Made by a program: the position numbers and the translations under genes
The notes under the pieces: model-generated
Told to the model about the DNA's origin: nothing
Seen by the model: the letters and a program-made list of their open reading frames with translations, nothing else
The model's database searches: none
Shown: in pieces, positions 13,123 through 29,747 of the stretch
How the letters are laid out: each line of letters opens with the position of its first letter
How positions within the stretch are numbered: position 1 is the stretch's first letter
NCBI GenBank assembly: GCA_000992085.1
Contig: LBTN01000002.1
Location: forward strand, 1-36,147
Reading direction: 5' to 3'
DNA from: Candidatus Magasanikbacteria bacterium GW2011_GWA2_37_8
Lineage (GTDB): Bacteria > Patescibacteriota > Patescibacteriia > Magasanikbacterales > GWA2-37-8
DNA length: 36,147 nucleotides

Positions 13123-13205
13123 TTTGTCATTCCCGCGAAGGCGGGAATCCAGATTTAAATAAAACTCGTTAACGACTGGATTCCCGCCTTCGCGGGAATG
13201 ACAAA
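13123..13205. repeat. REP-like inverted repeat, 30-bp perfect arms
   Basis: TTTGTCATTCCCGCGAAGGCGGGAATCCAG (13123-13152) and its exact reverse complement (13176-13205), 23-nt spacer. Confidence 0.95.
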
Positions 13206-13365: not shown

Positions 13366-13546
13366 AAAACGTTGTGAAAGTTTACGAAAATAGTTCTTTT
13401 ATAATGTGTAAATTGGCTAATTTTAGCTAATTTACCATCAAGGAGTTAGATGAGTTAAAGGCAAAAAAGTGGAATCAAGCGTTCCGGATTGTGGGTTTAT
13501 ACCTATAGCCCGGAATGTTTGATCCACAGCTTCACAGGAGGGTGCC

Positions 13547-13969
13547 ATGAGCACCAAGTTGCGCTTTGCGTTGCTGGTGGCTGTGTTGGCCACCCTTCTC
13601 GCCGCTTGTGGCGGCACGGACGGGGGCGTCATCAACGACGACCCCAACTACACCGACACGATGTCCGACCCGGACACCGTGTGCAACGAAGTCGCCGACG
13701 ACGGCGAGACGCAGTACGTGTGCCCCACGGGCCACTACTTCTTGGCGGGTTCCAACCCGCCGTGCGTCCTGATCGTCGAAGACGACCCCGAGGTCGTCGA
13801 CCAGTGCCAGCCCGATCCCTCTCTCGAAGGAAAGGACTGTGGCGGTTGCTTGCTGCACTTCAACCCAGAGACCTGTCTCTGGATGTGCGGCCAGCCGCCT
13901 CAAGGCGCGCTTCCTCCGTTCGGATTCACGGGCGAGCTGACGGTCAACGTCAAAAAAATTTGCCCGTAA
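13547..13969 (+). CDS. GC-rich Cys-rich predicted lipoprotein, 140 aa
   Basis: SD AGGAGG upstream of ATG; MSTKLRFALLVAVLATLLAAC signal with LAAC lipobox; strongly GC3-biased codons unlike flanking genes; promoter upstream and terminators downstream. Confidence 0.82.
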   Translation: MSTKLRFALLVAVLATLLAACGGTDGGVINDDPNYTDTMSDPDTVCNEVADDGETQYVCPTGHYFLAGSNPPCVLIVEDDPEVVDQCQPDPSLEGKDCGGCLLHFNPETCLWMCGQPPQGALPPFGFTGELTVNVKKICP

Positions 13970-14100: not shown

Positions 14101-14180
14101 CCATCCCCGCGAAGGCAGGAATCCAGTTGTAGCCATTATTTTATAACTTTCTAGATCCCCGCCTTCGCGAGGATGACAGT
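14101..14180. repeat. Degenerate copy of the REP-like inverted repeat
   Basis: CCATCCCCGCGAAGGCAGGAATCCAG ... CTAGATCCCCGCCTTCGCGAGGATGACAG. Confidence 0.8.
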
Positions 14181-27148: not shown

Positions 27149-27640
27149 CTAAAAAACATTTTGAATACCAATAGTAACTAGCAAGGTTAAAAACGCTGAA
27201 ATAAAAATTCCACCCAACACATAAGGCCAAGATTTTTTAAAAGGAATACCAAAAACAAATGCCGCTAACGCACCTGTCCAAGCACCAGTGCCAGGCAAAG
27301 GAATTCCAATAAAAAACATTAAACCAAGCAAGCCCCATTTAGCATAATCTCCAGCAAATTTATCTTGTGCTCGAGCCAACGCCTTAATCCACTTGCTCGC
27401 AAAAAAACCAGACTTGTTTTCAATATATTTATGAAATTTATCAGAAAACAACAAAATAACTACGGTAGGAATAAGATTGCCTATTATTGCTAAAATAACC
27501 GCCTTCCAAATTGGCATATGATAACCCAAAATTGCGACTGGCAAAGCCAAACGCAATTCGCCTACCGGCGTCATAGCCATAAGCAAAGTGGCTAATTCTG
27601 GCGAAAAGCCAGAAAAAAATTGGGTTACAGAATCCAACAT
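27149..27640 (-). CDS. Small multi-drug export protein-like membrane protein (COG2426-like)
   Basis: MTPVGELRLALPVAI, GLMFFIGIPLPGTGAWTGALAAFVFGI. Confidence 0.82.
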   Translation of the reverse strand: MLDSVTQFFSGFSPELATLLMAMTPVGELRLALPVAILGYHMPIWKAVILAIIGNLIPTVVILLFSDKFHKYIENKSGFFASKWIKALARAQDKFAGDYAKWGLLGLMFFIGIPLPGTGAWTGALAAFVFGIPFKKSWPYVLGGIFISAFLTLLVTIGIQNVF

Positions 27641-27699: not shown

Positions 27700-27728
27700 T
27701 TGACAAATTAGCTAAAATAGTGTAGGGT
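27700..27728 (+). promoter_or_regulatory. Sigma70-like promoter TTGACA-N17-TAGGGT with an overlapping dyad
   Basis: TTGACA 27700-27705, spacer 17, TAGGGT 27723-27728; dyad TAGTGT-N7-ACACTA (27718-27736) overlaps the -10. Confidence 0.55.
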
Positions 27729-27760
27729 GGACACTAGATAAACGGCGTTGAGGGACGCCA

Positions 27761-27910
27761 ATGCTTACCGAGCTGGTCGGACATGCCGCGAACAGGGTCG
27801 GGGACGTCTTCCTGCGCAACCCAGTGGGAGCGGCGATTACCCTCGTCGCGCTCACCTTCGTCCTGGCCATCTTTGGACAGGAAGAAGAGGACAGCACCGA
27901 CCCGACCTGA
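27761..27910 (+). CDS. GC-rich small ORF, 49 aa, single predicted TM segment and acidic C-terminus (MLTELVGHAANRVGDVFLRNPVGAAITLVALTFVLAIFGQEEEDSTDPT)
   Basis: Not in the supplied ORF track. GAGG SD-like sequence 7 nt before ATG; 38 of 48 codons counted (excluding start and stop) end in G/C; promoter and terminator flank it. Confidence 0.65.
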   Translation: MLTELVGHAANRVGDVFLRNPVGAAITLVALTFVLAIFGQEEEDSTDPT

Positions 27911-28033
27911 CCCCCCCCGCACTGCCACCCCCCCCACTACCACGGGAATAGGGCTGGCCAATCTCCGTTCGTCAGTTCTGTTCCCTAAAGTTTTTGATAA
28001 TTCGAAAATTTTAGTGAACTGATGAATATTATA

Positions 28034-28064
28034 AAAGACATCCTAAATATAGGATGTCCTTTTA
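28034..28064 (+). terminator. Intrinsic terminator AAAGACATCCTA-AATA-TAGGATGTCCTTTT
   Basis: 9-bp perfect core stem followed by a T-rich tract, downstream of the GC-rich small ORF and convergent with groL. Confidence 0.8.

Positions 28065-28088: not shown

Positions 28089-29747
<1,659 letters not shown>

Follow-up and report, generated by a model that had tools for sequence, protein, structure and literature searches.

The unit at positions 27700–28064 is probably a lineage-specific, horizontally acquired single-gene cassette that encodes a small membrane protein and is preceded by a host-type promoter. Its open reading frame (ORF) shows codon-phase periodicity, its architecture recurs through the genome, orthologous sites in relatives are empty, and in one family of such cassettes the base composition is decoupled from that of the flanks. 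The window, the whole stretch of 36,147 nt analysed here, is the complete contig C2 of a MAG (864,631 bases in 44 contigs) with a mean GC content of 36.5%. Two-state HMM segmentation delineated a GC-rich island at 27743–27985 on the plus strand with 65% GC and a peak of 68%, compared with a 99th percentile of 61% for 150-base windows of the genome. The unit lies on the plus strand, opposite both flanking genes, which are a PF06695 (Sm_multidrug_ex) membrane protein gene on the left (27149–27640, minus strand; Pfam, 2.1e-32) and groEL on the right (28089–29723, minus strand), the latter identified from its sequence and from synteny with relatives.

Direct reading of the sequence confirmed the layout described in the first-pass annotation, namely TTGACA-N17-TAGGGT followed by a GC-rich small ORF and then a terminator, with the neighbours on the other strand. 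The promoter-like site (27700–27728, plus strand) consists of a perfect −35 box (TTGACA, 27700–27705), a 17-nt spacer and a weak −10 box (TAGGGT, 27723–27728) matching TATAAT at 3/6 positions, which is why it is missing from our consensus promoter scan. Downstream, the small hairpin GGCGTTGAGGGACGCC (27744–27759, plus strand; read and folded) encloses the GAGGG ribosome site at 27750–27754, an arrangement that may have a regulatory role. The 49-codon ORF MLTELVGHAANRVGDVFLRNPVGAAITLVALTFVLAIFGQEEEDSTDPT, starting with the ATG at 27761 and extending to 27910 (plus strand), is followed by a GC-rich 3′ untranslated stretch with two C8 runs (27911–27966, plus strand; direct reading) and by an AT-rich, bulged two-step hairpin of 61 nt (27967–28027, plus strand), formed by 12 bp outer and 13 bp inner stems with a bulge of 6 nt in the 5′ arm and 1 nt in the 3′ arm. 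A terminator scan located the stem GACATCCTAAATATAGGATGTC at 28037–28058, with T-rich tails on both sides. The earlier description of an AT-flanked intrinsic terminator is to be corrected in that this stem, situated between two convergent transcripts, probably serves groEL too, and the 61-nt hairpin preceding it is a separate element. A bidirectional-looking stem is likewise found at the groEL/PF06695 intergene of cassette-free relatives. At two other loci (L103 and L104) this intergene has very long inverted repeats enclosing hairpins and no simple groEL terminator.

The GC content at codon positions 1, 2 and 3 of the ORF is 0.68, 0.42 and 0.78, respectively, the last agreeing with the earlier remark that most codons end in G or C. 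The difference between the third and second positions was reached in 0 of 20,000 shuffles, and this codon-phase pattern together with the ribosome site supports a translated ORF. Its length is weak evidence, since an ATG ORF of at least 49 codons also arose in 23% of composition-matched shuffles of the island. The translation given in the first-pass annotation was exact. An AlphaFold model calculated without an alignment showed two helices (residues 2–19 and 21–39) and an acidic tail with a mean pLDDT of 87.6, the tail being looser and modelled at lower confidence than both helices. Based on this model, the protein most likely comprises an amphipathic helix, one transmembrane (TM) helix and an acidic tail. 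Searches of its own genome, 192 related genomes, GTDB species genomes, IMG/VR viral contigs, phages and plasmids yielded 0 relatives, and no match was obtained in Pfam, NCBIfam, PHROGs, PADLOC or PDB, although the genome searches could miss relatives of so short a query. Conservation of the reading frame, by which the insertion was originally to be judged, was hence found in none of these collections, and on these sequence comparisons the designation 'conserved small protein' is not supported.

The gene order groEL, PF06695 gene, prfB is conserved across much of the family, with the PF06695 gene present in 23 of the 25 family genomes. In six same-family genomes the groEL/PF06695 intergene is cassette-free and measures 108–233 nt, versus 448 nt here. 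The unit thus resembles a horizontally acquired accessory gene (genomic islet) both in its foreign GC content (65% versus 36.5%) and in its absence from the orthologous site of six genomes; as no homologue was found in another lineage, the class membership of the 49-aa gene rests on composition and empty sites. In the relative G014, the groEL slot is taken by an unrelated GC-rich ORF of 39 aa, which has TTGACA-N17-TAAGGT and GGAGGG and shares the codon-phase GC pattern of the 49-codon ORF. For two other cassettes of the genome (C13:27185 and C20:918), the orthologous intergenes in the relative G017 are short, AT-rich and cassette-free. Two further cassette slots hold different GC-rich islands in G017 (p ~0.05, assuming 350 slots); as a sign of real preference, this recurrence of different islands in the same slots is suggestive only.

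A genome-wide search, set as a check beforehand, supported the initial proposal that two islands in the window point to a recurring class of insertions. HMM segmentation of the genome returned 51 GC-rich segments with a total of 32 kb, about 25–30 of which are single-gene units and some others repeats or native gene regions. Among same-family genomes, 22 such segments were counted in 400 kb of one and 10 in another. The other island noted at the outset (13547–13969, plus strand) was recovered by the HMM and by codon-phase GC as a 140-aa lipoprotein-like ORF of the same architecture (GC3 0.82), for which Pfam, PHROG and viral searches gave no relative. Inverted repeats of the ATTCCCGCCTTCGCGGGAATGACA type, which could be REP-like elements, flank this island at window positions 13126–13205 and 14101–14179. 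The cassettes encode unrelated proteins, most of them without a family, including lipoproteins, small membrane proteins, a PurH fragment and an M49 peptidase. The PurH cassette (C5:9695–10138) contains the N-terminal MGS-like part of PurH alone as its own transcription unit, and the GC-rich ORF at L058:406–2256 (C40) combines a pilin-like N-terminal segment with an M49 peptidase match (1.9e-12).

For comparisons across the class, 29 candidate single-gene islands were hand-picked from the HMM segments, and 23–24 were tested after dropping doubtful ones. The GC profile runs from 0.32 upstream through 0.27 in the promoter to 0.60 in the coding sequence (CDS), and is again 0.33 about 80 nt past the stop codon. 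The consensus −35 is the outstanding word upstream of the cassettes, with ATTGAC found at 15/24 cassettes versus 29/270 intergenic chunks (p 2e-8) and TTGACA, also among the most enriched words, at 18/24 versus 56/270 (p 1e-7). Likewise, promoter-like sites with a consensus −35 precede 12 of 23 cassettes but only 61 of 730 ordinary genes (p 1.6e-7). N-terminal hydrophobic segments are enriched in the cassette proteins (12/23 versus 185/730, p 0.007). An AGCTAAA palindrome occurs near several cassette promoters with weak enrichment (5/24 versus 17/270), and a near-palindrome, ATTTTAGCTAATTT/AAATTAGCTAAAAT, was observed near both cassettes of the window (13420–13433 and 27705–27718), its second copy lying inside the promoter spacer; it is weakly enriched upstream of cassettes. 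A k-mer comparison revealed no end sequence common to the cassettes, the shared words being generic promoter words alone. In the literature on GC-rich islands or integrons in Patescibacteria we found nothing describing this cassette class.

Because the 49-aa protein is without relatives, the argument for the origin of its gene goes via the class. For the 293-aa GC-rich cassette gene at C12:16260–17141 (also locus L030, 16260–17138), 93 relatives were found in GTDB genomes, almost exclusively in Patescibacteria and spread over many lineages (loci L147–L226). The mean gene GC content of this family is 57.0% versus 43.2% for the flanks, and at 55 of 59 loci the gene exceeds its flanks (p 5e-11). 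It depends weakly on flank GC (rho 0.28, for flanks of 29–66%), whereas the PF06695 gene, used as a control, tracks flank GC (rho 0.76) with no offset. The family tree mixes lineages, and the copy in this genome matches copies from other lineages at 59–61% but same-order Magasanikbacteria copies at 43–44%. The untranslated regions of the family are near flank GC, which would be unexpected if an entire GC-rich fragment had simply been transferred recently. We counted this against transfer, since it leaves room for selection on the coding sequence instead of, or besides, repeated transfer. As the family was found on three viral contigs only, a phage reservoir is not indicated. AlphaFold modelled the 293-aa protein, a member of the most widespread cassette family, with confidence (pLDDT 88.5); comparison with the PDB gave no fold at E below 1 and thus no hint of function, and the protein falls into no Pfam family. 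C-terminal remnants of the family (71–72% identical) lie close downstream of GC-rich cassette genes at C3:40306–40431 and C12:17728–17856, as though an earlier copy had been displaced.

Selection on coding sequence or mRNA could also account for the composition of a native, very young gene, arisen de novo or by fast divergence, and this would agree with the absence of any detected homologue of the 49-aa protein, with the host-like promoter and with the restriction of high GC to the CDS in the 293-aa family. We nevertheless regard such an origin as unlikely, since de novo genes are expected to be AT-rich at their start in a genome of 36% GC, the 56 nt of 3′ untranslated sequence of the unit are GC-rich too, the 293-aa family clearly moves across lineages, and relatives have cassette-free orthologous sites. 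The codon-phase GC and the well-placed ribosome site speak in turn against a structured non-coding RNA devoid of a protein gene. The 340-nt transcript does fold better than its shuffles (z −5.6), but this signal stems mostly from the 3′ hairpins; the region 27735–27966 alone reaches a z of only −1.9, making an RNA gene less likely, and an Rfam search of the window returned tRNA only, with no family at the unit, so that we give this interpretation a slight chance. Whether the encoded protein may be a type I toxin, that is a small single-helix membrane toxin, is a related question: its size, its modelled single TM helix, its properties of a small hydrophobic peptide and the ribosome site enclosed in a hairpin would all suit one. 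The consensus scan gave no minus-strand promoter within the unit, however, the tail is acidic and not basic, and no defence family matched; a toxin seems to us very unlikely.

The 61-nt hairpin raises the alternative of a mobile element with structure-specific ends, in which 27967–28027 would act as an attC-like site of an integron-type cassette. The one-gene size fits, some slots are used repeatedly by different cassettes, and intergenic DNA contains few bulged two-step hairpins, several of which are located directly 3′ of GC islands. In this MAG of ~90% completeness, on the other hand, no integron integrase was seen, as the PF00589 tyrosine recombinases number two and are probably XerC/D-like, and inspection of the hairpin by eye showed no GTTRRRY/RYYYAAC core. 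Moreover, hairpins of at least 16 pairs are no commoner 3′ of cassettes than of ordinary genes, and a bulged hairpin follows 0 of 57 loci of the 293-aa family, so that this hairpin type does not define the class. A strict scan for two-step bulges found a handful of hairpins, several of them adjoining cassettes and too few for a claim, and a looser scan was discarded as it gave thousands of matches. We rejected an identity as integron cassette because no integron integrase was seen and the hairpin is not a general feature, and consider an integron-like element of this kind very unlikely. An assembly chimera or contamination of the MAG appears scarcely probable: although GC islands occur within 300 bp of 14 of the 88 contig ends, where ~6 are expected (p 0.002; contigs C1, C4, C6, C8, C10, C11, C12, C23, C24, C27, C34, C38 and C41), the island studied here is internal, with a promoter of host composition and both conserved neighbours present, the independent genome G014 has another GC-rich unit at this site, and members of the cassette class turn up across many assemblies. 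The excess of contig ends could stem from variation among strains or from problems in assembly.

For the horizontally acquired cassette that we favour, an AT-rich host-type promoter would drive a GC-rich mRNA of foreign composition for the 49-residue membrane protein, with the transcript ending at a bidirectional terminator common to groEL. The ~25–30 one-gene cassettes would come from an accessory pool that circulates mainly within Patescibacteria and keeps its coding GC near 57–60% largely whatever the recipient. The DNA probably entered by natural transformation and would then have persisted in the intergenic spaces that separate operons; ComEC is encoded in the genome, so that DNA uptake is possible. 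As neither a homologue nor a donor of the 49-aa gene appeared in any collection searched, we infer the transfer of this particular gene. If expressed and inserted as predicted from its sequence, the protein would most likely reside in the cytoplasmic membrane, with the amphipathic N-terminal helix at the inner face, one TM helix and the acidic tail outside, and could serve there, small as it is, in an effector or modulator role, perhaps at the host-contact surface.

Single-gene transfers in groundwater Patescibacteria occur mostly between Patescibacteria (PMC12455944), and the transferred genes and genomic islands considered there are like our cassettes in that single genes are gained, mostly through exchange within the group. 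In contrast to the cassettes reported here, the portion of that study on which we draw describes neither one-gene GC-rich cassettes with host-type promoters nor a gene pool with GC decoupled from the recipient (PMC12455944). The cassettes share with integron cassettes a compact organization, one gene per unit and, as exemplified by 27700–28064, a hairpin near the 3′ end, but differ in having their own promoter, in being scattered singly, and in that no integron integrase, no attC core and no general hairpin were seen. Similar to small single-TM proteins and type I toxins, the 49-aa protein has about 50 residues and one TM helix, yet it differs from type I toxins in its acidic tail and in that neither a sequence match nor an antisense promoter within the unit was found. 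Bacterial ORFans are likewise short, without homologues and lineage-specific. They are usually AT-richer than their host, whereas the cassettes are much GC-richer than the genome.

Gene exchange among Patescibacteria is already known; the unusual aspect is a pool that is GC-richer than its recipients. We tentatively propose, as one possibility, that one-gene cassettes with their own promoters circulate in a pool common to Patescibacteria, that selection or continual exchange keeps their coding sequences near 57–60% GC whatever the flanks (29–66% GC), and that they occupy preferred slots such as the 3′ side of groEL and others through an undescribed docking route, the 49-aa protein being among the smallest cargos. 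A streamlined Patescibacteria genome nonetheless devotes a few percent to lineage-specific GC-rich single genes, many of which bear signals for membrane location or secretion. Should the pool exist, this composition combined with an intergenic position and a consensus promoter would provide a practical handle for finding accessory proteins of a mostly uncultured group, and would raise the testable question of why the base composition of the cassette genes does not converge on that of the genome.
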